53,472 nt of DNA, taken from NCBI GenBank assembly GCA_003353795.1, contig PIVY01000009.1:1-53472 (forward strand), in the 5' to 3' direction. Under the pieces are notes generated by a model, which searched no databases, was not told where the DNA came from, and saw only the letters and a list, made by a program, of their open reading frames with translations. The position numbers were made by a program, and so were the translations under genes. Positions 14,992 to 33,066 of the stretch are shown here, one piece after another (position 1 is the stretch's first letter; every line of letters begins with the position of its first letter). This DNA comes from a bacterium. Lineage in GTDB: Bacteria; Krumholzibacteriota; Krumholzibacteriia; LZORAL124-64-63.

Positions 14992-17694
14992 ATGCTCGGC
15001 AAGACTCTCCTCCATTACGAGATCAAGGAACGCATCGGCAAGGGCGGCATGGGCGAGGTCTACTCGGCCCGCGACACCAAGCTCGGCCGTGACGTGGCCC
15101 TCAAGATCCTGCCCACCGAGCTCAGCGGCGACCCCGAGCGCGAGGCCCGCTTCGAGCGCGAGGCCCGGGCCTTGGCCGCCTTACAGCACCCCAACGTGGC
15201 CTCGGTCTACGGCTTCGAGGAGGCCGAAGGGGTCCGATTCTTGGTCATGGAATTGGTGTCCGGCGCCGAGCTCACCGTGCGCATGAAGAAGGGGCCGATC
15301 CCCGTGGACGAAGCCCTGGCCATCGCGCGCCAGATCGCGGCCGGCCTGGAGACCGCCCACGAGAACGGCATCGTCCATCGCGACCTCAAGCCGGCCAACG
15401 TCATGGAGACCGACGAGGGCGACGTCAAGATCCTCGATTTCGGCCTGGCCCAGGCCTGGTTCGGCGACGACGACGGTTCCAGTAGCGACTCGTCCATGAC
15501 GCCCACCATCACTGCTGCCATGACTCAGGCCGGCGCCATCCTGGGCACCGCGGCCTACATGTCGCCCGAACAGGCACGAGGCGCCAGTGTCGACCGGCGC
15601 GCCGACATCTGGGCCTTCGGCGTGATCCTCTTCGAGATGCTCACCGGCGACCGCCTCTTCCACGGCGAAACAGTGAGCGACACACTCGCCGCCGTCCTGC
15701 GCGCCGAGCCCGACTGGGACGCCTTGCCCAGCGAGGACCACCCGGCCCTCTGCCGGCTCATTCATCGCTGTCTCGAGCGCAACCCCAAGCAGCGCCTCCG
15801 CGACATCGGCGAGGCCCGAATCTTCCTTCAGGACGGCGGTCAGAGCACCTCCCACCTGAGCTTCACGGCGCTGGACATGGGTGCCGGCCAGGCCGAACCG
15901 GCGCCCTCCCGTCCGCCCCTGCTGCTCGCGGCCCTCCTGGCCCTGGTCTGTCTGGCCGGCGGCACGTTCCTGGGCTGGAAGGTCCTCGCCACGTCGGAGC
16001 CCGCCCCGGTGCTCCACACCATGGTTCCCCCACCGCCCGAGACCGACTACGACCTCAACGGCACGTCGCCGGGACCGGCGGCCATCTCGCCCGACGGGAC
16101 CATGGTGGCGTTCACTGCCGTGGGCTCGGAGGGCGGCACGCAGCTCTACCTGAGGCACCTGGACAAGGGCGAATCCGTGGCCATGTCCGGCACCGAGACC
16201 GCCGCGTACCCGTTCTGGTCTCCCGACAGCAAGTTCATCGGCTTCTTCGACATGGGAGGCGGCAAGCTGCGCAAGGTGGCCGTGTCGGGTGGGCCGCCGG
16301 TGACCCTGTGCACGTCGACCAACGGCAAGGGCGGGTCCTGGAACAACGCCGGCGACATCATCTTCACGCCCGATGCCGGCGACGAGATCTATCGGGTGCC
16401 GGCCATCGGCGGTGAGCCGGTGATCATCACCGCCCTCGGCCCGGATCACAACTCCCATCGACACCCGCGTTTCCTGCCCGACGGGGAGCAGTTCATCTTC
16501 ACCGCCCGAGCGACCGAGAACGGCCGGCCCAACGACGTGTTTCTCGCCTCGCTCGACACCACCATCACGCCGCGCATCGTCACCACGACCCAGGTCAATG
16601 CCGACTACGTCGACGACCATCTCCTGACCGTGCGCGAGGGCGTCCTCATGGCGACTCCCTTCACGCCGGATCAGGATCGGGTGATCGAGGGCGGCACGCC
16701 ACTGGTGGAGGACATCCTCTCCCTGCCCGGGGCGGCGGTGGCCGTGTTCAGCCCGTCCACCACCGGCATGCTGGTCTTCCAGACCGGCGCCTCGGCGGAA
16801 ACGGGCATGCTGATGACCTGGATGGATATCGAGAGCGGCGCGATGGAGGTCATCGGCGAGCCCGGCCAGATCGTCCATCCCGCGATCAGCCCCGACGGTA
16901 CGCGCGCCGTGGTCGAGGTGCGCGACGTGTCCGACGAGGGCACCGATCTCTGGCTCGTCGAGCTGGACTCCGGCCTCAAGAGCCGTTTCACCTTTGCGCC
17001 CGGCGACGAGGCGGTCGCCTGCTGGTCGCGCAGCGGCGAGTTCGTCTTCTACATGAGTCATGAAGGCGGGACATTTCGCATCGTCCAGCAACCCGTGGAG
17101 GGTCAGGGCGGGGCGGCCATCCTGCTGGAGTCGGACCGAGTCGTGATGCCCACCAGCCTGAGCCCGGACGACCGGGAACTGCTTCTGGACTACCAGCGGG
17201 AAGACGGCGATACCGACCTGAGGCGCCTGTCCCTTGCCGGTGGCGACGGACAGCCCGTGGTCGTCGCGGCCTCTGACGACGGCTATCTCGGAGGCGGCAA
17301 GTACTCCCCCGACGGCCGCTGGATCACCTACCACACCCAGACCGCCGCGGCCTGGGACGTGTTCGTCATGCCCGCGGCCGGCGGCGCCCGCAAGTGGCAG
17401 ATCACCACCGATGGTTCCGCCTATCCCAGATGGAACTCCGACGGCACCGAGCTGTGGGTCAGCAAGTTCAACGGCGACCTGCGGGTCTACGAGGTCGACG
17501 GCAGCGGCGAGACCTTCCGGGCCGGCACCTTCACGCAACCACTGACGATCTCGTCGCCCGACGCCACCGGCTGTTTCTACGATATCCACCCCGACGGCCA
17601 GCGCATCTTGCAGACCGGCAACGACCCGGCGTTCCGCGCCGAGGTCTCGTACCTGCACCTGGTGACCGACTGGCGGCGCGGGCTGGCGCAGTAA
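14992..17694 (+). CDS. Receptor-like Ser/Thr protein kinase with extracytoplasmic beta-propeller
   Basis: A 900-residue protein from ATG 14992. Residues 8-280 are a complete Hanks-type kinase: Gly-rich loop IGKGGMGEVY (15-24), ATP lysine K38, catalytic loop HRDLKPANV (129-137), DFG (149-151), and SPE (191-193) after an activation segment rich in Ser/Thr. A single membrane helix spans about 310-331. Residues about 345-895 are a TolB/PD40-like propeller with blades such as AISPDGTMVAFTAVGSEGG and FWSPDSKFIGFFDMGGG, and later SPDGRWITY. The topology should put the propeller outside. This kinase-propeller architecture is common in Acidobacteriota and related soil/sediment lineages; ligand and substrates are unknown. 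The EamA transporter follows by 43 bp on the same strand and may be cotranscribed. Confidence 0.92.
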   Translation: MLGKTLLHYEIKERIGKGGMGEVYSARDTKLGRDVALKILPTELSGDPEREARFEREARALAALQHPNVASVYGFEEAEGVRFLVMELVSGAELTVRMKKGPIPVDEALAIARQIAAGLETAHENGIVHRDLKPANVMETDEGDVKILDFGLAQAWFGDDDGSSSDSSMTPTITAAMTQAGAILGTAAYMSPEQARGASVDRRADIWAFGVILFEMLTGDRLFHGETVSDTLAAVLRAEPDWDALPSEDHPALCRLIHRCLERNPKQRLRDIGEARIFLQDGGQSTSHLSFTALDMGAGQAEPAPSRPPLLLAALLALVCLAGGTFLGWKVLATSEPAPVLHTMVPPPPETDYDLNGTSPGPAAISPDGTMVAFTAVGSEGGTQLYLRHLDKGESVAMSGTETAAYPFWSPDSKFIGFFDMGGGKLRKVAVSGGPPVTLCTSTNGKGGSWNNAGDIIFTPDAGDEIYRVPAIGGEPVIITALGPDHNSHRHPRFLPDGEQFIFTARATENGRPNDVFLASLDTTITPRIVTTTQVNADYVDDHLLTVREGVLMATPFTPDQDRVIEGGTPLVEDILSLPGAAVAVFSPSTTGMLVFQTGASAETGMLMTWMDIESGAMEVIGEPGQIVHPAISPDGTRAVVEVRDVSDEGTDLWLVELDSGLKSRFTFAPGDEAVACWSRSGEFVFYMSHEGGTFRIVQQPVEGQGGAAILLESDRVVMPTSLSPDDRELLLDYQREDGDTDLRRLSLAGGDGQPVVVAASDDGYLGGGKYSPDGRWITYHTQTAAAWDVFVMPAAGGARKWQITTDGSAYPRWNSDGTELWVSKFNGDLRVYEVDGSGETFRAGTFTQPLTISSPDATGCFYDIHPDGQRILQTGNDPAFRAEVSYLHLVTDWRRGLAQ

Positions 17695-17737
17695 CGATTG
17701 GAGAAATCCGATTTCCACCCCTTCGCGCCCCGGAGTC

Positions 17738-18595
17738 ATGCTCACCGCCGCCGCCACGATCGTGGCCATGGTCGCCTTCGCATCGAACTCGATCCTCTGT
17801 CGTCTGGCCCTCGCCCCCGGGGCTATCGATGCGGCGACATTCACGACCGTGCGACTGGTGTCCGGCGCGGCGATCTTACTCGTGATTGCGCTCGCGACGG
17901 GTCGGGCGAAGCGCCGCGGCGCCGGAAACTGGCTGTCCGGAGCCATGTTGTTCGCCTACGCCATCTGCTTCTCGCTGGCCTATCTCGAACTCAGCATCGC
18001 GACCGGCGCCCTCATCCTGTTCGGCGCGGTCCAGTTTACCATGCTGACGGCGGCGATCGTCGGTGGGGAACGCCCGCAGCCGCTGCAATGGCTAGGACTC
18101 GTCGCTGCGCTGGGTGGATTCCTCTACCTGGTGTCGCCGGGACTGGAGGCCCCGTCGCCGCTGGGCTCGGTGCTCATGACGGCGGCCGGCGTGGCGTGGG
18201 GCTTCTATACCCTGCGTGGACGGGGTACCACCGATCCCATCTCGGCGACGACCGACAATTTCATTCGCGCGGTGCCGTTCGTGCTGATCGTGGGCGCGTT
18301 CATGCTGCGCAGTGTCCACGTCACGTCGCGGGGGCTGATTCTGGCGATCGTCTCCGGCGCCATCACGTCGGGAATCGGCTACGTGATCTGGTACATGGCG
18401 TTGCGGGGCCTCACAGCGACCCGAGCGGCCACGGTGCAACTCACGGTTCCGGTCATTGCCGCGCTGGGTGGTGTGATCTTCATGGCCGAGGCGATCTCGG
18501 TACGCCTAGCGGTGGCAACGGCCGGCATCCTCGGAGGCGTCGCGCTGGTGCTGGCCGGCCGGGAAACGAATGCCAGTCGCCGGGAGAATGCCTGA
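17738..18595 (+). CDS. EamA/DMT-family transporter
   Basis: The 285-residue protein has ten predicted helices. The first half opens with VAMVAFASNSILCRLAL and contains ILFGAVQFTMLTAAI; the second contains AGVAWGFYTLRGRG, SGAITSGIGYVIWYMALRGL and VPVIAALGGVIFMAEA. All are hallmarks of the EamA repeat. It is a probable metabolite exporter with unknown substrate. The ATG at 17738 has no strong Shine-Dalgarno. It lies 43 bp after the receptor kinase and is convergent with the LVIVD-repeat gene (34-bp gap). Confidence 0.88.
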   Translation: MLTAAATIVAMVAFASNSILCRLALAPGAIDAATFTTVRLVSGAAILLVIALATGRAKRRGAGNWLSGAMLFAYAICFSLAYLELSIATGALILFGAVQFTMLTAAIVGGERPQPLQWLGLVAALGGFLYLVSPGLEAPSPLGSVLMTAAGVAWGFYTLRGRGTTDPISATTDNFIRAVPFVLIVGAFMLRSVHVTSRGLILAIVSGAITSGIGYVIWYMALRGLTATRAATVQLTVPVIAALGGVIFMAEAISVRLAVATAGILGGVALVLAGRETNASRRENA

Positions 18596-18629: not shown

Positions 18630-20801
18630 TCACCGGACCAGCGCCACCTTCGCACGGTCGTGGCGGTCGCCGGCCTGGAGCCGGACCAGATAGACGCCGG
18701 AGCCCACCTCGCGGCCCTGCTGATCTCGCCCATTCCAGTTCACGCCGTGCTCGCCCGCCGGCCGGACCTCGTCCACCAGCGTGGCCACGAACATGCCGCG
18801 CGCGTCGTGCACGCTCAATCGCACGTGCCCGGCCTCGGGCAGCGTGAATCGGACGGTCGTCTGCGGGTTGAACGGGTTCGGCGCGGCGCCCTTCAACAGG
18901 GTCGGCGCCGGCACGTTCGCCACGTCCACCGACATCTGTAGCAGCACGTTGGTCAGGATCAAGAGCCCGTCGTCGTCGTCGGCCACGAAGAGCTTGAAGC
19001 CATCGACGTGCACTCCGAAGGCCTCGTCCGCCGTGTCGTAGAACCCGACCTCGCTCATGGCCGGCAGACTCGAAACGTCGATCATGCGCAGGCCGGAATC
19101 CTCGGTGGCGACATACGCGAATACTCCGTCCACGTCGACCTCGCGAGCATAGTCCGGCACCGGCACGGAGTTCACCTGGAACGGGTTCGCTGGGTCGGTG
19201 ACGTCGACCGCCGCGAGACCGCCGGTGCCGTCGGCGACCAGGGCGAAATCGCCGCTCGGGTCGATCTCCACGTCGCGGGCGTTGGCGGTATCCTCGAAGC
19301 CGGCGACCGTCGGCGCCGCGGGGTCGCTGACGTCGATGATGTAGAGCCCGGGCGATCCGGTGGCGATGTAGGCGTGGGGGAAGCGAACGTCCACGCCGAT
19401 GGTGACGGTCGTCGGTTCGATCACTCCCAGCCCCACAGGCGCCGCGGGGTTCGACACGTCCACGATGTGAAGTCCCGACGCCTGGGCGGCCACGTAGGCC
19501 AGGCCGCCGTCGACCACGCACTTCCAGGCGGCGCCGTTGCCCACGTCGTAGGTGCCAACCAGAGCGGGGGCCGAGGGCGTGGAGATGTCGACGATGAGCA
19601 GGCCGCCGGTGTCGTCCGAGATGTACGCGTGGTCGCCATCCAGCGTGATGTGCAGCGGAATCCCAGCGGTTTCCAGGCTACCGATCTCCACCGGCTGCGC
19701 GGGGTTTCCGATGTGGAGGACGCGCAGGCCTTCGGAGCGGTCCACCAGATAGACGTGCGGGCCATGGGCGGCCACGTCGCTGGCCTTGCCGGCGGTCTCG
19801 AAGGCGCCGATCTCCACCGGGGTCGCGGGCGTAGAGACATCGATGGCGCGCACGCCGTGGTCGCGATCGGAGATGAACGCCGTGCTGCCGGCGATGGACG
19901 CGTCCGAGGCCCAGCCGGGTGTGTCGACCTGGCCGATCAGCGAGGGCGAGGCGGGGTTCGAGACGTCCACCAGGTGCAGCCCGTCGTCGCCGGCGGTGAG
20001 GTAGACCGTGTCGCCGGCCAGCCCGATGCCGGCGCCCGAGGCGAAGAGCACCGAGTAGCGCCCGGCCTCGAATGGCACGGCGGGATTGGCGACGTCGATG
20101 ATGGTCATCTGGGCGACGCTGCTACCGGTGGCCGCCACGTACACGTGATCGGCGTCGGCCTCGATGCCGTAGGGAATGCCGTGGCAGTCGATCTCCGCGA
20201 GCGGGCTAGCGCTGGTGGGATTGGTGACGTCGATGACGTGGAGGCGCGAGGAGAACTCGCCGGCGTAGGCGAGGTTGCCATGGACGGCCACGGAGAAGAC
20301 GTAGCCCACCGGTACCTGGTCCACCTCGAAGGGCGCGGCCGAGTTGGAGATGTCGTAGATCCGGACGCCGTCGCCCGACGCGGCGACATAGGCGTGATCG
20401 CCCTGGGCGGCCACCGAGAGTGCGGTGTCGCCCGTGGCGATCGAACCCACTTCCACCGGGGCCGTGGGGTTGGACACGTCGACGATGCGGAGGCCATCGA
20501 GGTGACTCGCCACGCAGAGCCGGTTGCCGGCCAGGGCGAGCCCGCGCACGTAGCCGGTGACCGTCAGCGACCCCACCACCACCGGCGCGCCGGGCACGGA
20601 GAAGTCGATGATCCGCACGATCGCACCGTCGCCGAGGTAGACCAGGTTGCCGTCGGTGACCACGGAATAGCAGGGACCGCTGGCCCAGTGGCCGGTGAGC
20701 GAGAGATTGGCGCTGTCGCCTGTGTCGGCGGTGATTGGGGCAGCGAGTGGGGCGGCGAGAAGGACGAGCAGGATCGGGGCGATGATTCGGTGGCGACGCA
20801 T
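18630..20801 (-). CDS. Secreted LVIVD-repeat protein with FlgD-like C-terminal domain
   Basis: About 723 residues from the ATG at 20801, which has a textbook AGGAGGT 5 bp upstream; a start 19 codons earlier lacks one. A signal peptide (IIAPILLVLLAAPLAAPITA) precedes about thirteen copies of a ~42-residue repeat. Each contains a strand of the type LRIVDVSNPTAPVEVGS followed by D-x-A-Y/H-V-A (LVIVD repeats, PF08309), predicted to form one or two propellers. The last ~90 residues form a FlgD-Ig-like domain (APNPFNPQTTVRFTLPEAG, then GEHGVNWNGRDQQGR and GVYLVRLQAG). This type of tail acts as a secretion/anchoring signal in FCB bacteria. The role is probably surface or extracellular binding; no enzyme motif is visible. 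Confidence 0.85.
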   Translation of the reverse strand: MRRHRIIAPILLVLLAAPLAAPITADTGDSANLSLTGHWASGPCYSVVTDGNLVYLGDGAIVRIIDFSVPGAPVVVGSLTVTGYVRGLALAGNRLCVASHLDGLRIVDVSNPTAPVEVGSIATGDTALSVAAQGDHAYVAASGDGVRIYDISNSAAPFEVDQVPVGYVFSVAVHGNLAYAGEFSSRLHVIDVTNPTSASPLAEIDCHGIPYGIEADADHVYVAATGSSVAQMTIIDVANPAVPFEAGRYSVLFASGAGIGLAGDTVYLTAGDDGLHLVDVSNPASPSLIGQVDTPGWASDASIAGSTAFISDRDHGVRAIDVSTPATPVEIGAFETAGKASDVAAHGPHVYLVDRSEGLRVLHIGNPAQPVEIGSLETAGIPLHITLDGDHAYISDDTGGLLIVDISTPSAPALVGTYDVGNGAAWKCVVDGGLAYVAAQASGLHIVDVSNPAAPVGLGVIEPTTVTIGVDVRFPHAYIATGSPGLYIIDVSDPAAPTVAGFEDTANARDVEIDPSGDFALVADGTGGLAAVDVTDPANPFQVNSVPVPDYAREVDVDGVFAYVATEDSGLRMIDVSSLPAMSEVGFYDTADEAFGVHVDGFKLFVADDDDGLLILTNVLLQMSVDVANVPAPTLLKGAAPNPFNPQTTVRFTLPEAGHVRLSVHDARGMFVATLVDEVRPAGEHGVNWNGRDQQGREVGSGVYLVRLQAGDRHDRAKVALVR

Positions 20802-21026
20802 GAGGGACCTCCTGCGTGGGCGATGCCGGTCATTCGGTGTGATTCCGGTATTATTCAAGTAAGAGCGACCGTGCCGGGGTGGCCACTGCTGGTCGGTGAC
20901 GTGTCAGGGGTGTTTGTCGACGCCGCCAAGGCTTACGAACCGGAACCGGCGTTGCTCTCCCGGGCGCACCCCACTGTGTCGATTCGTCATGGGATCCCGG
21001 CCACCCAACCGTTACCTTTGCTCATC

Positions 21027-21697: not shown

Positions 21698-24600
21698 CTA
21701 CTTCAAGAGCGTCATCTTCTGCGTACCACCCGCCCGCTGCCGATCCAGGAACAGGTTGTACATGTAGACGCCGCTGGCCACCTCGGCGCCGCGCTCGTCG
21801 CGGCCCTGCCAACGCACGTTGGTCGGGCCGGCCGGCATCTCGCCGAGATCGATGCGGCGCACGAGCGTGCCGCGGACATCGTAGATGCGGATCTCCACCG
21901 CGCTGGCTCTGGCGAGATTGAAGCGAATCTCGGTGCTCGGGTTGAAGGGGTTGGGCGCGTTGCGGAGATCGAGGGCCACCGGCACGTCGTCGATGCCGAC
22001 CTCGCCGGCGATGACCGCCATGGCCACCGGCAACGGCAGCACCGGCTGACCCGGATCGTTGGACGAGAACCTCAGCTCTCCCAGGTACTGGCCCGGGCCC
22101 AGGTCGAGGGACCGGAACGTCACGGTCAACTCCACCTCCTCGCCGGCGGGCACGGTACCGGCCACCGGTGACACGTCGAACCAGGACGCCGCCGCCAGCC
22201 AGTCGAAGACCCGGTTGGCGAACAGTCGGTTGTCGGCCAGGGCGACGCTGTAGTCGTTGAACGCATCCTCGCTCATGGCCATCACGCGGCTCTGCCCCGT
22301 GCTGTAGCAGCCGGCCATGGCCACGCCGGCGACGTCGCTGACCAGCAGTGTGGCGAGGCCTTCATTGACCAGGAGGGAAGACGTGGGAAGGGTCAGCTGC
22401 ATGCTCGCCACACCGACCGTGGTCTCGTGAGGTCGGATGTTCTGCGTCACTCCGGCCGTCCCGTCGTCCGGCAGAAAATCGATCCCGGCGTTGAGCAGCG
22501 CCAGGATCAGCCGGAACGTGTCGACCGTCGGGCCCGAGTCGCCCTCGAGCATGACGCGGCCGCCGCTGCGGATCCACTCGACGAGGACGGCGACCTCGTC
22601 GGGTGACCACATGGCGTCGCCCTCGGTGATCCAGAACACGCGATAGGCCGAGAGCACGTCCGCGGTGACGGGTTCGGTGTTGATCTCCACGGTGGCGCCG
22701 CGATCGGTCAGGTCGCCGATCAGGACGTTCCAGCTCAGCGGATCGGTCTGATTGTGCGAGCGGTCGAAGGCGATGGTGATGCCCGTCAGGTCGGCCAGGT
22801 CGGCCCGCAGCGGATTCTGGGGCGGATCGGACATCGGTGGGTCGATCAGGTCGGCCGGCGGCTCTCCCGGGCCGGCCGGCGGCAGCGTGAACTCCATGCG
22901 TCGCGCCATGGCGTCGCTGTAGAGGTTCACGGTCCAGTTGAGTGCGCTGCCGCCGTCGTTGCGCAGGAACAGCTGGCGATCGATGGTCTGGTCGACCGGG
23001 ATCTCACAATAGAGCGAGTCCGGATCGGTCGCGATGATCGGCGCCTCGAGTGCCGTGAACGTCAGCGGCACGGTCACCAACGGCGCGTACGGATCGTTGC
23101 TCGTGATGCTGATCACGGTGTCGACCGTGTCGACCTCGGTGGGTGTGATCGTGACGGTCACCGACATCTCGCCGCCGATATCCAGATCGAAGACTCCCGG
23201 GTCGATGGATACCGCGGGGTGGTCGCAGGCGATGTCGGACACCGAGAGCAGATCGCAACCCGGGTTGGAGACGGTGAGCCACGCGTCGGCCGTGGAGCCC
23301 AGGTACACGCCGCCGATGTCCAGCGACGTCGGTGCCACGGCCAGGACGGGTTCGCCGAGCAGATGCAGGTGCGTGCCCACGCGAACCTGTGGCGTGATCG
23401 GATCGTTGCTCTGGAACAGCAGTCCGGCGAGATGGTCGCCGCCGCAGAGTTCGGTGGCATCGAAGATCACGTCGACCTCGATCTCCTCGCCGGCGGGAAG
23501 GACGCCGTACATGGGCACAACCCGCAGCCAGTCGGCGTCGTCGATCAGCCAGTCGAACATGCGGTTCGCCATGAGCTGATTGTCGGCGTAGGCAATCGCA
23601 TGGTCGGCGTTGACCTCGTCGGTCAGCACCACGATGCGGCCGCCGCCGACCTCGGAGAGGGCCGCGCAGGGCCGCCCCCGGCGATCGTCGAAGATCGGCC
23701 TGGCCGGTGCGTCGAGTGAGGCCAGATAGGCCCGCGGCGACTCCAGGTAGATCTGCTCGGCATCCTGGTCGAGCGAGGTCGCGTGGAGCGTCGTGGTCAC
23801 CCCGCTCGTGCCGTTTCCGGACTGGAGAGTGATTCCGGCCTCGAGGTCGGACAGCAGGTCGCCGAACGTGGCCAGGGCACGATGATCGTCGCCCTCCAGC
23901 AGCAGCGACCCACCGGTCTCGACCCAGTTGACGATGGCCCGGCGTTCGGCCAGGTCCAGGGCGATGGTGTGGTCGGTGAGCCAGAGCACCTGGTGGTCGG
24001 CCAGCACGTCGGCGGTCAGCGATCGCGTGGTCGCCGTCACGACGGCGCCACGGGTGGCGAGATCGTTGACGATGGTCGACCACATGGACAGCGGATCCTC
24101 GCCGTGACCGAGGTCGTACAGGATGGCCGCGTCGGTGAGATCAGCCAGCCGTGCGGTGACCGCCAACTCGCGCGGCGCGATGGCCGGGGGAGATTCGAGC
24201 GGAGCGTCCGGCGACTCGGCGCCGCGAGTCGGCAGATCGAGCGTCATGGCCTGGTTCGGGCCGTCGCCGGCCTGCTCGACGGAGTTCCAGAAGAGGTCCG
24301 ACCCGCCGCTGTTTGCCAGTACCACCGTCAGGGTGTCGATGGTGCCGCCGGGCATCTCCAGGTAGAGCGAATCGGGCAGGACGCTGATCACCGGCGGCTC
24401 CACGGCGGCGCCGCTGACCGGTACGGACAGCTCCGGCCACTGCGCCGCGTTGCTGGTGATGACGAGATCCGTGGCCAGGTCGCCCACGGCGCTCGGAGCA
24501 TAAGTGATCGCCACGCTCTGCGTGCCGGCCACCGGCACCGAGAACGTGTTCGGCGCCGCCGAGAGGTCGGCGGCATCGCTGGCGATCGACGCGACCTCGA

Positions 24601-27600
24601 GCACGTCGCACCCGTCGTTGGTCACGTACAGGCTGTCGACGACCACGTCGCCGACGAACCGCACGCCGAAGTCCAGCAGCATCGGCGCCACCTCGATGGT
24701 GGGCAGACCCGCCGAATGCATGTGGGTGCCGACGCGCACACTGGGGTTCAGCGGGTCGTCGTTCTCGAACAGCACCGCGGCCAGACGGTCTTCGCCGCAG
24801 ATTCCCGTGGCGTCGAAGGTGAACTGGACCTCCGCGCTCCCGCCGGGCGGCACGATGCCGCTGGTGGGCTCGACGATCAGCCACGAGGTGGCGCCGGCGA
24901 GCCAGTCGAAAGTCTGGTTGGCGAAGACCTGGTTGTCGGCGAGGCCCACCATCCAGTCGGAGAAGATCTCGTCGCAGGTCACGAAGACGCGTCCGCTGCT
25001 CGGCCGGCTGTATGCCGTATGGGGCCGCATGAGAAGGTCGTCGACGAGGATGCCGGCCGGTTCCGCCACCGTGCTCAGGTAGGCGAGGGGCGAGCCGAGG
25101 TAGACGCCCTCGACATCCATCGTGGTCTGATGTTCATGGATGCTGGTGGTCGTGCCGTCGTAGCTATCGCCGTACAGCATGGTGATGCCCGCGCCGATCG
25201 CGGCCAGCAACTCGTTGTAGATCGACACTGAGTAGCCGTTGTCTCCCTCGATCAGGAGCGCATTGCCATCGTTCACCCAGTTCGCGATGGCCTGTTGCTC
25301 CTCGTAGGTCAGCTCGAAGTTCACGTCGATGGTCCACAGCACGTCGTGCGGTGCGAGGACGGATTCGGTGATCATGCTGTAGTTGGTGGCGACGACCGCG
25401 CCTCGCGACGTGAGATCGGTGACGGTGGTCGACCAGTCGACGAGCGAGCCCTGACCATGCGACTGGTCGAACAGGATCGAGATGCCGGTCAGGTCGGAGA
25501 GGTCGGTCACCAGGGACTGGGTGCGCGCTCCGGCCGGCAACGGTGCGGGCGCCATGGCGTCCGCATCGGGCTCTATCGCCTCCGGCGGCGGCGGCGAGAG
25601 CGTCGCCGGTTGCAGGTGGTCGTTGTTCGTGACGATCCGGGAGTGCCAGGTCAGGTCGGATCCGCCGGAGTTCTCCACCGTGACGAAGGTGGAGTCGGCG
25701 GCGCCGCCCGGAACCTCGATGTAGATCGAGTCGGGATTCACGGCGATCACCGGCGCCAGCAGCGCCGTGGCATTCACCGGAATCGTGACCAGGGGATGCA
25801 TGGGGTCGTCGCTGACGATGGAGACGTCCGCGCTCAGAGCGCCGACGCTGCTCGGGGCATACGTCACGACCACCGGCATGGCTCCGCCGATGGGTACGGT
25901 CATGTCGACCGGCGAGACCGTCAGGTCGCCATGGCTGCTGGTGATCGATTCGACGATCAGGTCGTAGCAACCGGGATTGGCCACGGTCAGCGTGTCGGCC
26001 AGGATGGCGCCGACGAAGACGTTGCCGAAGTCCAGGGCCGCAGGCGCGACCTCGATGACCGGTTCGCCGAGCACGTCCAGACGCGCAGGCACCGCATCGG
26101 TGGTGTTGGTCGGGTCGTTGGTGCTGAAGACCAGATCGGCCGTGACAACGCCGCCGCACATTCCCTCGGCACTGAAGTCGACGTTCACGTAGACGCTGTT
26201 TCCGGGAGCCACGGATCCTACCTGAGGCACCACGGCCAGCCACGAACTGGCACGAGCCAGCCAGTCGAAGACCTGGTTGGCGAAGAGCTGATTGTCGACG
26301 AAGTTCAGCGGGTAGTCATAGAACATCTCGTCCGCCGAGACGATGATCCGACCGAACCCGGCATGGCTCGCCGCGGTGTTGGCGATGCCCTCATAGTCGT
26401 CGATCAGCCTGGTGGCCGGCGCCGACACTGTCGCGAGGCTGGCGCCCGGCGACGGCAGGTAGATCTCCGTCACCTCGGTCGTCGTCGGGTGCTGGTACAC
26501 GCCCAGGGTGTTGCCCGACCCGCCGTTCACCGACGAGACCATGATGCCGCCGTTCAGCGCCGCTAGCAGCGTGTTGAACGCCGTGGCCGACGAATCGTTG
26601 TCGCCCTGCAGGAGCAGGCCGCCGCCCGATTCGACCCAGGCCACGACGGCGCTCACTTCGGCGGGTGTCCAGTCCGCGGCACTCTCGTTGATCCAGAGCA
26701 CCGAGTACGGCGCCAGGACTCCGGCGGTGATGGTGGCTGTACTCTCGTGGATCGTGGCGCCCCGCGTGACGAGGTCGTCGAACATGGTGTACAGATCGTA
26801 GGGCGACGACTGCCCGTGACTCCGGTCATAGAGCATGGAGACGCCTGTGAGGTCCGCCAGTTCGGTCACCAGCGGCTGCACGTGTGCCTCGCCCGCCGGC
26901 GGGCGCGTCTCCTCGTCGGAGTTCGACGTGGTGACGGTGCTGCGGGGCAAGGTGAAGCTCCGCGGCAGGAGTTCGTCGACGGGCTGGACCTCGAGCTCCC
27001 ACAAGAGATCGCTGCCGCCGGAGTTCGAGACCTGGAGGATCCGGGTCACCCTTTCGCCGGTGACCGCCGGAACGTCGAGGGTGTCCGGCCAGACCTGTGC
27101 GATGGGCGCCGGGTAGACCTGACTGGTGAGGGTGAATGCGTGCAGGGGCAGATCCGGATCGTCGCTGTGGACCTCGACCGTGGTTGCCAGAGGACCGACC
27201 TCGCCCGGGGTGTAGGTCACCAGCACGGTCTCGGAGGCCGCGGGTGGGATGGAGCAGGTGCTGGGCTCGATGACGATGTCCGCGTGCTCGCACAGGATCT
27301 CGCTCACCGTCAGCATGGCGCAGCCGTCGTTGGTCAGGCGCAAGGTGTCCACGACCACCGCGCCCAGGAACACCGGGCCGAGGTCGACCGTGGCGGGCAG
27401 CTCGGCGAGATTGGGCGCCACGGCGACCGTGAGGGTGGTGGCGACGGCATGCTCCGGGTCGAGCGGGTCGTTGTTGAAGACGACGATCTCGGCCGTCGCC
27501 TGGGCGCCGCACAGTTTTTCGGCGTTGATCTCGACATTGAGGATGTCGGGCGAGAAGGGAGCCACGACGCCCGAGCTGGGCTCCACGCGGAGCCACGCCG

Positions 27601-30600
27601 TGGTGTCGGACAGCCAGTCGAAGACCTGGTTGGCGAACAGCTGGTTGTCCGCGATGCCGATCGTGTAGTTCTCGAAGAGTTCCTCGGAGATGGCGACCAC
27701 GCGGCCCCAGCCGGTCTCGGAGAATGCCCCGACAGAGGTTCCCGCGTAATCGTCGAAGAGCCGTCCGGCGGGATCGGTGACGGAGTCGATATGCGCCTGC
27801 GGATAGTCGAGAAAGATCGTGGCGATCCCGTCGGTGGTCGGGTGGGGATACACGGCGCTGGTCGGTCCGCTGTAGGCATTGCTGGTGGAGAAATCGATGC
27901 CGGCGCCCACCAGGGTCAGCAGGTCGTTGTAGACCTCGACGGAGTTGTTGTCGTCTCCCTCGAGCAGGAGGCTGCCGCCCCCAGTCACCCAGGTGACCAG
28001 GGCGTCGATCTCGTCGGTGGTCCAGTTGTTGTAGCAGTCGGTGATCCAGAAGAGGTCCACGTCGCCGAGCATCTCCGGCGTGACCACGGAGTTGTTGGGC
28101 TGGACGGTGGCGCCACGGAGGGTGAGATCGTCGATGATCTGGCTCCGGTAGCTCATGGACGCTTGCCCGTGCGCCAGGTCGTAGACCACGACGGTGCCGG
28201 TCAGATCCAGAAGTTCGGTGGTCAGCCGACCTTGCCGCATGGCCGGTCGCTCGGCCGGGATCGGCTCGTTCGAGGCCGACACGGCTCCCGCCGGTGGCGG
28301 CTCCAGATCGTAGATCCGGGGCGTGGGCGAGTTCTGGGTCACGATCCGGGCGCTCCAGATCAGATCGCTCTCCCCGGAGTTCACCACGGTCATCAGGCGG
28401 GTCTCGCTGCCGCCGGGGGACAGTTCGCTCGCGAGGGTATCGGGCCACACCACGATCTGGGGCGGTGTGAGGCCGGCTCCAAACCACGGCACCTCGAGCA
28501 TCGGCAGATCGACGGCGTCGCTGCTGACGGCCAGGAAACCGGACACCGCGCCGGACACCTCGGGCGCGAACGTGACGATCACGGTCTGGGTCTGACCGAT
28601 CTCGAGTTCGAAGGTCGACGGTTCGGCGGTCACCGTGGCGTGGCCACCGTCGATGTCGGTGACGTGCAGGGTGGCGCAGCCCAGGTTCGACACCTCGAGC
28701 GTATCAGTGGCGGCGCCGCCGGCGAATACCGTGCCGAACTCCAGCGTGTCGGGGCGGGCGCCGATCATGGGTTCGCCCGTGACGTTCATGATGGTCTGGA
28801 CGTGGTAGGTCGGCAGCATAGGATCGTTGCTGTCGAACAGCGCATCGGCTGTGAAGGCCCCGTTGCAGCGCAGCGTCGCGTCGAAGGTGACGGTGACGTC
28901 CTGGGCGCCGCCGGGAGCCACGGTGCCGCCCATGGGATCGGCCGTGAGCCAGAGTCCGCCCACGGACAGCCAATCGAAGATCTGGTTGCCGAAGATCTGG
29001 TTGTCGCCGGACCCGAGCGTGTAGTCTTCGAACGCGCGTTCGGCGATCACCACGACCCGGCCCCAGCCACAGAGGCTGTGTGCCGCGTTGGGGTTACCGG
29101 AAACATCCTCGACCAGGACTTCGGCCGGTTCGTAGACGCTGCTGAGTTGGGCGCCCGGTGAAGGAAGGTTGACCTGCTGCACGCCGTGCGTGGTGGCGTG
29201 GATGGCGATCCGGTCGGTGAGCCCCGAGACGCCGTTGGATGTCGAGACGGTGATCCCGGCTTCCAGCGCCTGGAGCAGATCGTTGAAGGCGTAGACGCCG
29301 GAGGTGCCGTCCCCCTCGAGCAGCAGGTTGCCGCCCGCCCGCACCCACTGCACCACGGTCTCGTATTCGGCGGTGGTCCAGTTGTCGTAGCCGTCGGTGA
29401 TCCACAACACCTCGGCGGAGTCGAGGCTTCCCTGCGTGAACGGCGAGGTGTTCGTGGTCACCGTGGCGCCGCGGAGGGTCAGGTCGTTGCGGATGATCGA
29501 CCAGTAGGAATCGTACTGGCCGTGGGCCGCATCGAATACCACGTCGATGTCCGTCAGGTCGAGCAGCTGGGCGGTGCGCGCCTCGACTGCCGGGGCGGAC
29601 TGCGCCAGCGGCGGCGGCGTCAGGTCGTACAGCTGTCGTGACGGGGCTTCGGGCTCGGTGAAGCGAAGCGACCAGTCGAGCTCGCCGGCGCCGAGATTGT
29701 TGATGGTGATGGTGCGGTCGACCGTCTCGCCGGACGGGACGTCGGCGATCAGGACGCCGGGCGTGACCGAGATCTCGGGAGCCAGGATTGCCTCGGCGAA
29801 GAGTTCGACCACCAGGGAAGTCTCGTCGGGGTCGTTGCTGGCGAAGGTGAGCGAGGCGGTGATCGGCCCCACCTGAGTTGCGCTCACGGCGACGGAGACG
29901 GGCTGTGTCTGGTCCACGCCGACGGTGAAACTGGTCGGCAGCACGGTGACGTCGGCGTGATCGCTCACGATGTCGGTGACCGAGAGCGGCTCGCAGCCGG
30001 AGTTGTGCACCAGCAGCGTGTCGACCTGGGTCGTGCCCACCAGCACCTCGCCCAGATCCAGGACCGCCGGATCGATATCGATATCGGGCTGAGCGGAGAC
30101 GGAGATGGAGGCGGCCACCGACAGGTTCGGCATGGCGGGGTCGTTGCTCGCGATCAGCACGCTGGCTGTGAAGTCGTCGGCGCAGAGATCGGTCGCGTCG
30201 ATGGTGGCGTTGATGTACATGGTGGCGCCGGGCGGCACGGTGCCCTCGCGGGGAGCCAGGATCAACCACCGGATCGGGTTGGAGAGCCAGTCGAAGCACT
30301 GATTGGCGAAGGCCTGGTTGTCGGCGTAGCCCACGCCGCCATTCAGGAACAGGTCCTCGGCGATGACGATCACGCGCCCGAGTCCACACTCGCTGAAGGC
30401 GGTATTGGCGTCGCCAATGACGTCGTCGACGAGATTGCCGGCAGGGTCGCTGACTTGCGAGAGCCGTGCCGTGGGGCCGGGGAGGTAGATCTGGTCGATG
30501 TCCTGGGTGATGTCATGGGGATGGATGTTCCCGGTGTAGCCCGAGTACCCGTTGCTGGTGGACATCTCGATTCCCGCGTCCATGGCGGCCAGGATATCGT

Positions 30601-32596
30601 TGTGCGCATAGACGGCTGTATTGCCGTCGCCTTCGAGGAGCAGGCTACCGCCGTCGAGCGTCCAGGCGGCGAGGGCGTCGATCTCGTTCTGGGCCCACGA
30701 ATAGAACGATTCGGTGGACCAGAAGATGTCGATGTCGGCCAGCGCGGACGACGACACCGGTTGCGAGTTGACCACGACGGTGGCGCCGCGCGCCGCGAGA
30801 TCATCGAGGATCGTGCTGTAATCGTAGATCCCGTACTGACCGTGGCTGACGTCGAACATGACCGTGATCTCGCCGAGATCGGAGAGTTCACGCGCGAGCG
30901 GGACGGTGCGGACCGGACCGGAATCCGCGGGAGCCGCCTCGTCTCGCGGCGGCTGCGCCGAGGGATCGGGCAACGAGAGCGTGTACGCGCGCGGCAGGGG
31001 CGCGTCGGCGGTCTGGATGACCGCGCGCCAGTCGAGCGACGCGGTGCCGGTGTTGGTGACCTCGACCACGTGGACCGCGGCTCCGCCGGGATCCAGGTCG
31101 GAATGGATGGAGGCCGGCGCAACGGAGATTTCCGGTGGCGCCAGCGCCGCTCCGGTGGCCAGGACCATGACGGCCGGCTCGTCGAGGTCGTCACTGACCA
31201 CGACCAGGGTGCCGAACATGGGACCCTCGCTGCTGGGCTGGTACTGCACGATCACGGCCTGGCTGTCGCCGGGCGCGACGGCGAAACTCGTCGGCGCGAC
31301 CGTGATGTCGGCATGACCGGCCTGGATGTCCGAGACCGTCAGGAGATCGCAGCCCGAGTTGATCACGGCCATGGTGTCGGCGACCACCGCACCGACGTAG
31401 ACGTCTCCGAACGCGATCGCATCGGTATCCAGGTCGATGTCGGTCCGGCCGGTGACCTCGAGGACGTTGGCGACCCGCATCGGTGCGGTCACGGGATCGT
31501 CGGCGAGAATCCAGAGATCGGCTGCCATGCTCTCGGTGCAGCGGGACGACGCGTCGAAGGTCAGGTTGACGACCATGTCCATGCCGGGGGGCAGGTTGCC
31601 GGCGGTCGGCGCCACGCGCAGCCAGCTGATGCGTTCGGCGAGCCAGTCGAAGCACTGATTGGCGAAGACCTGGTTGTCGCCGTAGCCCAGGCTGTAGTTC
31701 CCCATCACGTACATGTCGACCAGGGCCACGATGCGATGGTTGCCATGCTCGCTGGCAGCCGCGATATGCACTCCGCCGCCCGTGACGTCGTCGGCCAGCA
31801 CCACGGCCGGACTCTCCACCGTGGGCAGGGTGGAGTACGCGTAATCGAAGAAGATGCTGTTGACCATGTCGGTGGTCGGGTGCTCGTAGACGTCGAAGGT
31901 CTCGCCCCAGTATCCATTCGCGGTCGAGAACGTGATTCCCGCGTCCAGTCGGGCCAAAAGATCGTTGAATGCATTCACGCACGCGGTGCCGTAGCCGGCG
32001 AGCATCAACCCGCCGCCGTTCAGGCACCAGGCTTCGATGGCGTTCAGTTCGTTGGTCGTGAAGGAGATGGGGCTGTCATTCAGCCACAGGACGTCGACAT
32101 CCTCGAGCACGGACGCCGTGATCGTCATCTGGTTCTCGACCACTTCGGCGCCTCGAGCGGTGAGATCGGCTACCAGGGTCGAGAAGGTACTCAGGGTCGT
32201 CTGGCCGTGGGACCGGTCATAGAGGATGACCGCTCCCTCGAGATCGGCCACCAGCGCGACGACGGGCTCTTCGCGGCGCGGCAGCGGGTTCGGTCGCGAT
32301 CCTTCGGGGCGTTCGGCGGTCAGCGGCGGCAAGGTCAAGACCGTGCGAGCCGGCGGCGTCTCATCGGGGGGCAGCAGGATGGCTTCCCAGGCGACCGCGT
32401 ACTGGCACGGATTGCTCAACGTCACCGCGCGCATCGCGACCTGTTCGGAATCCAGCGCGACGTACAGCGAGTCGGGGTCGACCGTCAGGCAACCGTCACC
32501 GTCCTGGGCGGCGGCCACCAGCGTGACGCTGCAAGCGACGATCAGGGCCAGAGCGAAGCGGAGCGTGGGAGCTCCTCGACGAGTGCGAGTCAACAT
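21698..32596 (-). CDS. Giant secreted protein with eight ~450-residue tandem modules and FlgD-like tail
   Basis: The protein has 3,632 residues from ATG 32596; a GTG codon just upstream is less well spaced from GGGGG. A signal peptide (LRFALALIVACSVTLVAAA) precedes eight modules. Each has (i) a Gly/Asp-rich strand domain, (ii) an alpha/beta domain opening with the motif [FY]DxxHGQ and 'DLxxRGA', then GGxLLLEGD, and ending ADNQxFANQxFDWL, and (iii) Ig-like/ASH-like domains with one Cys in DATxxCxxD and one in NxGCxxLxV. The HGQ histidines lie near residues 131, 586, 1026, 1477, 1928, 2381, 2832 and 3282, a 440-455-residue period. The alpha/beta unit resembles DUF4350/GATase1-like folds; enzyme activity is unproven. 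The last ~90 residues form a FlgD-like tail (NAPNPFNPSTEIRFNL, GVYMYNLFLD). It stands alone on its strand with 470 bp upstream. Confidence 0.85.
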   Translation of the reverse strand: MLTRTRRGAPTLRFALALIVACSVTLVAAAQDGDGCLTVDPDSLYVALDSEQVAMRAVTLSNPCQYAVAWEAILLPPDETPPARTVLTLPPLTAERPEGSRPNPLPRREEPVVALVADLEGAVILYDRSHGQTTLSTFSTLVADLTARGAEVVENQMTITASVLEDVDVLWLNDSPISFTTNELNAIEAWCLNGGGLMLAGYGTACVNAFNDLLARLDAGITFSTANGYWGETFDVYEHPTTDMVNSIFFDYAYSTLPTVESPAVVLADDVTGGGVHIAAASEHGNHRIVALVDMYVMGNYSLGYGDNQVFANQCFDWLAERISWLRVAPTAGNLPPGMDMVVNLTFDASSRCTESMAADLWILADDPVTAPMRVANVLEVTGRTDIDLDTDAIAFGDVYVGAVVADTMAVINSGCDLLTVSDIQAGHADITVAPTSFAVAPGDSQAVIVQYQPSSEGPMFGTLVVVSDDLDEPAVMVLATGAALAPPEISVAPASIHSDLDPGGAAVHVVEVTNTGTASLDWRAVIQTADAPLPRAYTLSLPDPSAQPPRDEAAPADSGPVRTVPLARELSDLGEITVMFDVSHGQYGIYDYSTILDDLAARGATVVVNSQPVSSSALADIDIFWSTESFYSWAQNEIDALAAWTLDGGSLLLEGDGNTAVYAHNDILAAMDAGIEMSTSNGYSGYTGNIHPHDITQDIDQIYLPGPTARLSQVSDPAGNLVDDVIGDANTAFSECGLGRVIVIAEDLFLNGGVGYADNQAFANQCFDWLSNPIRWLILAPREGTVPPGATMYINATIDATDLCADDFTASVLIASNDPAMPNLSVAASISVSAQPDIDIDPAVLDLGEVLVGTTQVDTLLVHNSGCEPLSVTDIVSDHADVTVLPTSFTVGVDQTQPVSVAVSATQVGPITASLTFASNDPDETSLVVELFAEAILAPEISVTPGVLIADVPSGETVDRTITINNLGAGELDWSLRFTEPEAPSRQLYDLTPPPLAQSAPAVEARTAQLLDLTDIDVVFDAAHGQYDSYWSIIRNDLTLRGATVTTNTSPFTQGSLDSAEVLWITDGYDNWTTAEYETVVQWVRAGGNLLLEGDGTSGVYAFNDLLQALEAGITVSTSNGVSGLTDRIAIHATTHGVQQVNLPSPGAQLSSVYEPAEVLVEDVSGNPNAAHSLCGWGRVVVIAERAFEDYTLGSGDNQIFGNQIFDWLSVGGLWLTADPMGGTVAPGGAQDVTVTFDATLRCNGAFTADALFDSNDPMLPTYHVQTIMNVTGEPMIGARPDTLEFGTVFAGGAATDTLEVSNLGCATLHVTDIDGGHATVTAEPSTFELEIGQTQTVIVTFAPEVSGAVSGFLAVSSDAVDLPMLEVPWFGAGLTPPQIVVWPDTLASELSPGGSETRLMTVVNSGESDLIWSARIVTQNSPTPRIYDLEPPPAGAVSASNEPIPAERPAMRQGRLTTELLDLTGTVVVYDLAHGQASMSYRSQIIDDLTLRGATVQPNNSVVTPEMLGDVDLFWITDCYNNWTTDEIDALVTWVTGGGSLLLEGDDNNSVEVYNDLLTLVGAGIDFSTSNAYSGPTSAVYPHPTTDGIATIFLDYPQAHIDSVTDPAGRLFDDYAGTSVGAFSETGWGRVVAISEELFENYTIGIADNQLFANQVFDWLSDTTAWLRVEPSSGVVAPFSPDILNVEINAEKLCGAQATAEIVVFNNDPLDPEHAVATTLTVAVAPNLAELPATVDLGPVFLGAVVVDTLRLTNDGCAMLTVSEILCEHADIVIEPSTCSIPPAASETVLVTYTPGEVGPLATTVEVHSDDPDLPLHAFTLTSQVYPAPIAQVWPDTLDVPAVTGERVTRILQVSNSGGSDLLWELEVQPVDELLPRSFTLPRSTVTTSNSDEETRPPAGEAHVQPLVTELADLTGVSMLYDRSHGQSSPYDLYTMFDDLVTRGATIHESTATITAGVLAPYSVLWINESAADWTPAEVSAVVAWVESGGGLLLQGDNDSSATAFNTLLAALNGGIMVSSVNGGSGNTLGVYQHPTTTEVTEIYLPSPGASLATVSAPATRLIDDYEGIANTAASHAGFGRIIVSADEMFYDYPLNFVDNQLFANQVFDWLARASSWLAVVPQVGSVAPGNSVYVNVDFSAEGMCGGVVTADLVFSTNDPTNTTDAVPARLDVLGEPVIEVAPAALDFGNVFVGAILADTLTVANPGCYDLIVESITSSHGDLTVSPVDMTVPIGGAMPVVVTYAPSSVGALSADVSIVSDDPMHPLVTIPVNATALLAPVIAVNPDSIYIEVPGGAADSTFVTVENSGGSDLTWHSRIVTNNDHLQPATLSPPPPEAIEPDADAMAPAPLPAGARTQSLVTDLSDLTGISILFDQSHGQGSLVDWSTTVTDLTSRGAVVATNYSMITESVLAPHDVLWTIDVNFELTYEEQQAIANWVNDGNALLIEGDNGYSVSIYNELLAAIGAGITMLYGDSYDGTTTSIHEHQTTMDVEGVYLGSPLAYLSTVAEPAGILVDDLLMRPHTAYSRPSSGRVFVTCDEIFSDWMVGLADNQVFANQTFDWLAGATSWLIVEPTSGIVPPGGSAEVQFTFDATGICGEDRLAAVLFENDDPLNPSVRVGTHMHSAGLPTIEVAPMLLDFGVRFVGDVVVDSLYVTNDGCDVLEVASIASDAADLSAAPNTFSVPVAGTQSVAITYAPSAVGDLATDLVITSNAAQWPELSVPVSGAAVEPPVISVLPDSLYLEMPGGTIDTLTVVLANSGGSDLFWNSVEQAGDGPNQAMTLDLPTRGAESPDAPLESPPAIAPRELAVTARLADLTDAAILYDLGHGEDPLSMWSTIVNDLATRGAVVTATTRSLTADVLADHQVLWLTDHTIALDLAERRAIVNWVETGGSLLLEGDDHRALATFGDLLSDLEAGITLQSGNGTSGVTTTLHATSLDQDAEQIYLESPRAYLASLDAPARPIFDDRRGRPCAALSEVGGGRIVVLTDEVNADHAIAYADNQLMANRMFDWLIDDADWLRVVPMYGVLPAGEEIEVDVIFDATELCGGDHLAGLLFQSNDPITPQVRVGTHLHLLGEPVLAVAPTSLDIGGVYLGSTADAWLTVSNPGCDLLSVSDIACDHPAVSIDPGVFDLDIGGEMSVTVTITPTEVDTVDTVISITSNDPYAPLVTVPLTFTALEAPIIATDPDSLYCEIPVDQTIDRQLFLRNDGGSALNWTVNLYSDAMARRMEFTLPPAGPGEPPADLIDPPMSDPPQNPLRADLADLTGITIAFDRSHNQTDPLSWNVLIGDLTDRGATVEINTEPVTADVLSAYRVFWITEGDAMWSPDEVAVLVEWIRSGGRVMLEGDSGPTVDTFRLILALLNAGIDFLPDDGTAGVTQNIRPHETTVGVASMQLTLPTSSLLVNEGLATLLVSDVAGVAMAGCYSTGQSRVMAMSEDAFNDYSVALADNRLFANRVFDWLAAASWFDVSPVAGTVPAGEEVELTVTFRSLDLGPGQYLGELRFSSNDPGQPVLPLPVAMAVIAGEVGIDDVPVALDLRNAPNPFNPSTEIRFNLARASAVEIRIYDVRGTLVRRIDLGEMPAGPTNVRWQGRDERGAEVASGVYMYNLFLDRQRAGGTQKMTLLK
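22080..32215 (-). repeat. Eight-fold tandem protein-level repeat, ~1,350 bp per unit
   Basis: The unit anchor (codon for the H of HGQ) lies at minus-strand positions 32209, 30844, 29524, 28171, 26818, 25459, 24106 and 22756. The spacings are 1365, 1320, 1353, 1353, 1359, 1353 and 1350 bp. The units are clearly diverged at nucleotide level, so this is an old amplification, not an assembly artefact. The eighth unit keeps the alpha/beta domain (HNQ in place of HGQ) but loses both module cysteines and the second ASH-like domain before the FlgD tail. Confidence 0.85.
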
Positions 32597-33066
32597 CACG
32601 AAACCCCCGGGATGAGGAACCGAGCGAGCCGGACACGCGGGCGGCCATGCAGGCCGAGCCTCGTGCTTCCGGACCGGCGGCGGCGAAACACCTGGCGATA
32701 TGAAGAACCTGTGGTGGTATCGAACGAGTTGGACATGGGTTCGGATAATCGGTGGAATCGAGTTCGTCTAGTAACATTCGAGTTATGGCGCATCGTTCAG
32801 CAAGAGTCGGCATTTGCCGGTCGCTTCGGTCGCGTCGTAATAGGCTGCGAGACTATCACGGTACGAGTGTCGAATCAACTCGAAGCGGCCGGAAATTGTT
32901 GGTAGAGCACGATTCCGGGGCATCCAAACAGGATGACAATTGTCTAGAATGTGGGGTCTGGGTGCATCGTGGCGTAAGGTGTTGCCGTAGGTTCGATAGT
33001 AATATTCAGTTCAGTTATCAATTCAGAAGCGACCATAATACGGCGCAGCATGAAGCAGCCGGCGAT
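32597..33066. other. 470-bp intergenic region upstream of the giant gene
   Basis: It lies between the giant gene start and the stop of the small kinase gene, both on the minus strand. The stretch 32740-33060 is AT-richer than the coding DNA around it. A TTGATA (minus strand, near 33018-33023) is followed by TACTAT after only 14 bp, which is too close for a good promoter. GATTAT near 32751-32756 has only a weak -35 partner. No small gene is supported. Confidence 0.4.

Follow-up and report, generated by a model that had tools for sequence, protein, structure and literature searches.

The window analysed here is the whole 53,472-nucleotide stretch of contig PIVY01000009.1. On its minus strand, positions 21698-32596 form a single open reading frame of 3,632 codons with an ATG start, and an alternative GTG start lies at 32599, directly before the ATG at 32596. 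Residues of the encoded protein (P0001) are numbered from the GTG, one codon ahead of the ATG, which gives 3,633 residues. The protein has a signal peptide at its N-terminus and a FlgD_ig domain at its C-terminus; between them lie eight modules of about 450 residues, which start at residues 37, 488, 938, 1379, 1830, 2282, 2735 and 3186. Every module has an [FY]DxxH[GN][QE] anchor, at residues 127, 582, 1022, 1473, 1924, 2377, 2828 and 3278, so that the anchors lie 440-455 residues apart, and after every anchor a DN[QR]x[FM]xN[QR]xFDWL block closes the α/β unit. The pairwise identity of the modules over their entire length is 30-42%, indicating that the repeats are neither of low complexity nor due to chance; with the α/β core modelled below, they are not merely the low-complexity Ig strands that had been considered at the outset. 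The features are as follows.

21698..32596, minus: entire gene for the secreted modular protein of 3,632 aa (single open frame starting with the ATG at 32596)
32507..32596, minus: signal peptide MLTRTRRGAPTLRFALALIVACSVTLVAAA (read by eye, not with a prediction tool)
32363..32491, minus: module 1, first half of the split ASH-like host domain (host-half profile)
31625..32362, minus: module 1 insert, linker and GIFT/DUF4350 α/β domain (P0001 residues 80-325)
31433..31624, minus: module 1, second half of the split host domain
31139..31432, minus: module 1, complete ASH/HYDIN-like Ig (PF15780 best stretch 394-472)
31004..31138, minus: module 2, host half 1
30269..31003, minus: module 2 insert, linker and GIFT (P0001 residues 533-777)
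30077..30268, minus: module 2, host half 2
29789..30076, minus: module 2, complete ASH-like Ig (Pfam, module alignment)
29648..29788, minus: module 3, host half 1
28952..29647, minus: module 3 insert, linker and GIFT (residues 985-1216; IFT52_GIFT best stretch 1046-1096)
28760..28951, minus: module 3, host half 2
28466..28759, minus: module 3, complete ASH-like Ig (Pfam, module alignment)
28331..28465, minus: module 4, host half 1 (AlphaFold model, strands 4-54 of the module)
27596..28330, minus: module 4 insert, linker and GIFT (residues 1424-1668; modelled α/β 81-286 of the module)
27404..27595, minus: module 4, host half 2 (AlphaFold model, strands 292-347)
27113..27403, minus: module 4, complete ASH-like Ig (AlphaFold model, strands 359-450)
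26975..27112, minus: module 5, host half 1
26243..26974, minus: module 5 insert, linker and GIFT (P0001 residues 1876-2119)
26051..26242, minus: module 5, host half 2
25757..26050, minus: module 5, complete ASH-like Ig (PF22544 best stretch 2180-2277)
25622..25756, minus: module 6, host half 1
24884..25621, minus: module 6 insert, linker and GIFT (P0001 residues 2327-2572)
24692..24883, minus: module 6, host half 2
24398..24691, minus: module 6, complete ASH-like Ig (Pfam, module alignment)
24263..24397, minus: module 7, host half 1
23531..24262, minus: module 7 insert, linker and GIFT (P0001 residues 2780-3023)
23339..23530, minus: module 7, host half 2
23045..23338, minus: module 7, complete ASH-like Ig (Pfam, module alignment)
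22910..23044, minus: module 8, host half 1
22184..22909, minus: module 8 insert, linker and GIFT, HNQ variant (P0001 residues 3231-3472)
21992..22183, minus: module 8, host half 2, with no second Ig after it
21698..21991, minus: C-terminal FlgD_ig domain, a likely sorting tail for the T9SS (Pfam, PorU-model match)

When we searched Pfam with P0001, the scaffold matched HYDIN-like Ig (PF22544; 1.8e-100, 330 bits) and ASH (PF15780; 1.1e-61, 205 bits), and its Ig family also matched NF012200 (choice-of-anchor-D; 1.8e-83). The α/β units matched DUF4350 (PF14258) over eight stretches (6.2e-56, 190 bits against a gathering cut-off of 30.4) and IFT52_GIFT (PF23355; 1.7e-12), and the tail matched FlgD_ig (3.2e-12). 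A weak match to ABC_transp_aux, which we take to be the GldG family, was also obtained (1.9e-4). The original prediction, which did not state the strand, had described a giant secreted protein encoded in one uninterrupted frame, with eight near-equal modules, an Ig/ASH scaffold and a FlgD-like tail, and all of this is borne out.

P0001 is very acidic, with 481 Asp and Glu among its 3,633 residues. It contains three lysines, two of them within the C-terminal tail; lysine makes up 0.3-7% of most window neighbours and about 0.5-3% of other secreted proteins of the window or genome, and is nearly absent from the GIFT relatives L012 and L013 as well. Modules 1-7 harbor a cysteine pair (module positions 319 and 382), one member in host half 2 and the other in the following Ig, which suggests an inter-domain disulfide. 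Both cysteines are absent from module 8, which has no following Ig, and relatives do not conserve the pair. Two further FlgD_ig-tailed secreted proteins are encoded in the window, at 18630-20858 (minus) and 46575-48281 (plus), the former, just downstream of the giant gene, being an LVIVD (choice-of-anchor-B-like) propeller. A 921-aa frame at 15181-17946 (minus) has no Pfam or NCBIfam match, and a 912-aa frame overlaps it on the opposite strand.

Each module had been described as a strand domain, an α/β domain and Ig/ASH-like domains in a row. These components are present, but the α/β unit is not a separate member of the row: the preceding strand domain and the first Ig that follows together make up a single split ASH-like sandwich, one half each, and the GIFT domain of each module is inserted in a fixed loop of this host. 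The original prediction had proposed modelling one module, and module 4 as modelled by AlphaFold (pLDDT 94.9, pTM 0.81) contains the α/β core at 81-286, preceded by strands at 4-54 and followed by strands at 292-347 and a seven-strand complete Ig at 359-450. The first host half has three to four strands and the second has four, neither forming a complete sandwich alone. When the two halves were joined into one profile, with the linker and α/β unit removed, the profile crossed the join in uninterrupted domains of the relatives L063 (66-173, 5.7e-24, 6 residues between the halves) and L057 (396-501, 4e-18, 1 residue between them). Uninterrupted copies of the host also occur in the genome of the window itself, in the subtilases L088 (819-920, 1.1e-14) and L090 (890-991, 8.5e-14) and in others. 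Among the fetched relatives, 60 pairs of first and second halves enclosing inserts were found; reversed proteins and shuffled proteins each gave 0. Both halves were detected around 33 of the 39 strong GIFT units in relatives, and 4 of the remaining 6 units are partial matches or lie at the end of an ORF or contig. The scaffold Ig of the module 4 model gave Foldseek matches to 7sqc and 9ijj. A BFVD search returned chiefly general Ig/BACON phage matches. Both host halves resemble widespread BACON/ASH patterns, so that cross-matching is possible, but the reading of the α/β unit as one domain in a row, with the contiguous matches in relatives a coincidence of the common Ig pattern, is effectively refuted by the joined profile (up to 5.7e-24 across gaps of 1-6 residues), the modelled incomplete halves beside a seven-strand second Ig, the empty reversed and shuffled controls and the uninterrupted copies in the same genome, and we find it hardly tenable.

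In order to identify the α/β unit, we searched all PDB sequences with a GIFT profile built from the eight units of the window and 33 units from relatives (41 in total). The best matches were all IFT52 (5fmr, 1.5e-9; 8bd7, 7.4e-9; 5fms, 8.5e-7), and beyond IFT52 this search gave no match better than 0.1. The fold search that had been suggested for the predicted module likewise led to IFT52, the module 4 model matching 5fms in Foldseek with a TM-score of 0.74 (normalised to IFT52) and an rmsd of 3.6 over 225 columns. Moreover, in the window the unit closes with a DNQLFANQVFDWL block, which can be aligned with the 'eeN...vF.WL' that closes the IFT52 GIFT. The α/β unit of P0001 is thus a DUF4350/GIFT domain, and among solved structures the IFT52 GIFT comes nearest to it. 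The predicted kinship with DUF4350 therefore stands, and the closest characterised relative is IFT52, not ThuA/GATase1. The whole protein scored 2.3e-6 and 28.5 bits against ThuA (PF06283), under the curated cut-off of 33.4, and there is no conserved Cys column among the 41 GIFT units, hence no class-I GATase nucleophile. On these two results we reject membership of the class-I GATase/ThuA family.

The bacterial GIFT units share a polar set, D96, H99, H208, T211, D239 and D273 (module numbering), conserved in 89-98% of aligned units (H208 98%, H99 95%, T211 95%, D239 93% and D273 93%), while the insert copies are otherwise mostly 30-50% identical. Several of the conserved D/H/T residues lie directly after strand ends in the module 4 model, and a putative ligand site at these positions is plausible. 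Sugar binding has been proposed for GIFT domains (PMC7226087, citing Beatson & Ponting 2004), and in the GIFT domain of site-1 protease (S1P) a putative calcium is held in an acidic pocket (PMC11231238).

The genome of the window encodes components of type IX secretion (T9SS). We found SprA_N (1e-13, in an ORF of 2165 aa), PorV (4.3e-17) and, encoded next to PorV on one contig, a PorU-like protein of full length (3.3e-123; 411.5 bits against a cut-off of 420), as well as at least 150 FlgD_ig tails. The PorU model matches the tail of P0001 with its C-terminal part (1.5e-8); the classical Por_Secre_tail (PF18962, TIGR04183) was not matched in P0001, and in several relatives FlgD_ig and Por_Secre_tail match one and the same tail. 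From the SprA, PorV and PorU-like genes, the abundance of FlgD_ig tails, the PorU-model match and the double tail matches of relatives, we infer with good reason that P0001 is exported by the T9SS. The PorV-like and PorU-like genes stand side by side at G000:C193:12827-16974, as expected of a T9SS locus.

A survey of copy number in related genomes, which had also been proposed, showed strong GIFT-module matches in 12 of 80 genomes of the phylum and none in three genomes of the same genus. So patchy a distribution indicates that these cells can do without the fibre. Outside the phylum, GIFT modules occur in records labelled Zixiibacteriota, Gemmatimonadota and Ignavibacteriales. Other related records bear the label Latescibacterota. 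Tandem amplification, which the original prediction held to be unusual, is not peculiar to P0001, since relatives carry 2-3 units per ORF, L012 (Meg19_46_Bin_182) carries at least 7 modules over two adjoining ORFs and G035 carries six over three ORFs. The eight in P0001 are the most found in one ORF. In L012 the two adjoining ORFs overlap in different frames (L012:4460-4701), which suggests a frameshift or an assembly error splitting one longer gene. In a tree of GIFT units only M2, M3 and M4 among the eight of the window group together (82/95). We set aside a single local eight-fold amplification, as the eight units form no supported clade, a single clade being also not rejected (p-AU 0.37).

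The slot that holds the GIFT domain is used in other ways as well. In other proteins of the same genome and in relatives it can be empty or occupied by unrelated domains. The 60 pairs of host halves enclose GIFT units in 32 cases and other inserts in 28, proportions that are not representative since the relatives were selected for possessing GIFT units. Two short linkers excepted, the non-GIFT inserts fall into at least 10 further classes that are mutually unrelated (phmmer, E<1e-4). Those that could be named are β-propeller-like (DUF6923/PQQ, weak), MAM (InhA-like MAM, 2.5e-6), LamG/CBM-like (weak) and nidogen-like, the last named by eye, with a weak NIDO match at another place in L015. There were in addition a second class resembling DUF4350 and several classes that no Pfam family matched. 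In the genome of the window, the slot of L086 holds a nidogen-like insert and that of L091 a different one, roughly 110 residues long. A model of the nidogen-like module predicted from four sequences (pLDDT 55.5) was confident in the host strands and not in the insert, and was left out of the fold search.

When we compared modules within single proteins, we found unrelated inserts on very similar scaffolds. In modules 3 and 4 of L017 (Zixiibacteriota) the host halves are 82% identical and so are the second Igs, while the inserts are unrelated. Four modules of L055, whose hosts are 50-70% and second Igs 62-75% identical, are each filled differently, with a MAM, a nidogen-like, a DUF4350-like and a GIFT insert. 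Unrelated inserts on scaffolds up to 82% identical indicate that inserts have been exchanged. The label 'GIFT' required 20 changes on the scaffold tree against a shuffled mean of 22.4 (a quick tree with many weak forks); insert type thus does not clearly follow scaffold descent, and we dropped the idea that it tracks scaffold ancestry. The slot looks like a reusable socket for the extracellular display of binding domains. We consider the odds about even that T9SS cargo proteins of the FCB group generally use the split ASH-like domain as a plug-in socket, with at least 11 mutually unrelated insert families, in which recombination between scaffold repeats swaps heads and the eightfold GIFT protein is the homogeneous form. 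Such a socket would amount to a combinatorial, evolvable display system of exchangeable heads.

Taking these results together, we propose, with a probability of about 0.62, that P0001 is an extracellular rod of alternating ASH/HYDIN-type Ig domains, exported via the T9SS, in which every second Ig is split and eight GIFT heads are projected sideways as a multivalent ligand-binding display, the slot serving this bacterial lineage as a general-purpose socket that can be left empty or filled with unrelated domains. The host chain forms its first three to four strands, exits at the fixed loop, builds the whole GIFT domain and returns for four strands. The split domains of RTX adhesins hold their ligand-binding domains out from the axis (PMC12077191, PMC10865825); by analogy, the heads of P0001 would point sideways from a candidate rod and may bind ligands, perhaps sugars. 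Sugar need not be the ligand, because GIFT is also a protein-protein module in IFT52 and S1P. A multivalent binder, one of the two functions originally suggested, is our best guess; the other, a polymer-active surface fibre, finds no backing in the ThuA score or the cysteine pattern of the α/β unit.

The GIFT inserts could instead be structural, stiffening or widening the rod and binding nothing, in a surface-layer or matrix protein that grew by ordinary tandem duplication. Scaffold and inserts are both repeated, and a very acidic composition with 3 lysines in 3,633 residues could suit a matrix protein or one that resists proteases. However, H208, H99, T211, D239 and D273 are kept (93-98%) among copies mostly 30-50% identical, typical binders (propeller-, MAM- and LamG/CBM-like domains) are found among the related inserts, and strong GIFT units are wholly absent from close relatives, so we regard a mere spacer or coat as unlikely. 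It is improbable that each head is a GATase1/ThuA-like hydrolase or transferase acting on a polymer, arrayed in tandem for processivity. Despite the GATase1-like fold family, the weak ThuA similarity and the conserved D/H residues near strand ends, a ThuA/GATase-family enzyme is without support given the sub-cut-off ThuA score and the missing cysteine, and published descriptions give the GIFT domains of IFT52, S1P and Wbp1 non-catalytic or accessory roles. We give still less credence to an adaptor for surface motility or assembly whose heads bind T9SS or gliding components and not external ligands: GldG and IFT52, from which GIFT takes its name (PMC10191852), do work in protein assemblies, and the weak ABC_transp_aux match and the T9SS genes fit, but the signal and tail place P0001 outside the cell and relatives join GIFT inserts to secreted proteases.

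As a display rod, P0001 most likely works like a split-domain adhesin. It shares with the RTX adhesins AhLap, FrhA and MpIBP (PMC12077191, PMC10865825) a giant rod and a domain projecting from the loop of an Ig-like split domain, the rod shape, sideways projection and ligand binding being presumed for P0001. These adhesins, however, are secreted by the type I route, contain RTX repeats and carry a small number of heads (three in AhLap) close to the C-terminus, whereas P0001 has eight equal heads along the whole rod, an ASH/HYDIN host, GIFT heads, a FlgD_ig tail and T9SS genes in its genome. No RTX family was among the 25 best Pfam families for P0001, which has the FlgD_ig tail instead. P0001 departs from these adhesins in host family, heads, tail and secretion alike and is therefore not an RTX adhesin.

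Compared with the IFT52 GIFT (5fmr, 5fms, 8bd7; PF23355), P0001 has a homologous α/β domain, including the C-terminal '..N..vF.WL' block, but IFT52 has one GIFT domain, intracellular and not nested in an Ig, whereas P0001 has eight that are extracellular and nested; the DxxHGQ motif of the P0001 units is absent from IFT52 in the alignment. The scaffold Ig family is common to the ciliary HYDIN and CFAP47/65/74 and to bacterial choice-of-anchor-D proteins (NF012200). The ciliary ASH/HYDIN proteins are cytoplasmic, unlike P0001, and a nested insert in ASH/HYDIN-type or choice-of-anchor-D proteins was not reported in the open-licence literature searched. The S1P (MBTPS1) ectodomain (8uwc, 9csd; PMC11231238) combines a secretory-pathway subtilase with GIFT and a beta-sandwich, its single GIFT being packed on the protease, while P0001 has no protease; Foldseek matched 9csd at 3.5e-7. 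In the relatives L055, L015, L056 and L058, Peptidase_S8 with a Fervidolysin-type propeptide is joined to GIFT/ASH modules. A common origin of the subtilase-GIFT combination in relatives and in eukaryotic S1P is possible. DUF4350, which matches the eight stretches of P0001, is a domain without known function and has not been described as an Ig insert. GIFT, ASH and split domains are each already known singly; in the open-licence literature we found no description of an ASH-type split host, of exchangeable use of the socket or of tandem GIFT display.

The split host offers a reading rule for giant secreted proteins of uncultured FCB bacteria, in which the slot from 'N-x-G..LxW' to 'WLxVxPxxG' marks a functional head. 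With this rule, unknown binding domains can be excised and tested, as was done for RTX split domains, and, with inserts exchanged between scaffolds that are as much as 82% identical, domain swapping can be put to a direct test. GIFT (IFT52) and ASH (HYDIN), best known from cilia, are here together in one bacterial chain, which bears on the source from which eukaryotes obtained both domains.

GIFT units were also seen in other settings. L067:9018-9851 (minus) encodes GIFT outside the slot, as a stand-alone, probably secreted protein of 278 aa. In L061:6287-8320 (plus), an N-terminal GIFT unit without host half 1 lies outside the slot and is followed, by eye, by a host domain with a LamG-like insert. 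L022:91-4932 (plus) encodes a C25 (gingipain-type) peptidase with FG-GAP repeats that bears a GIFT unit, around which the host halves are recognisable by eye.
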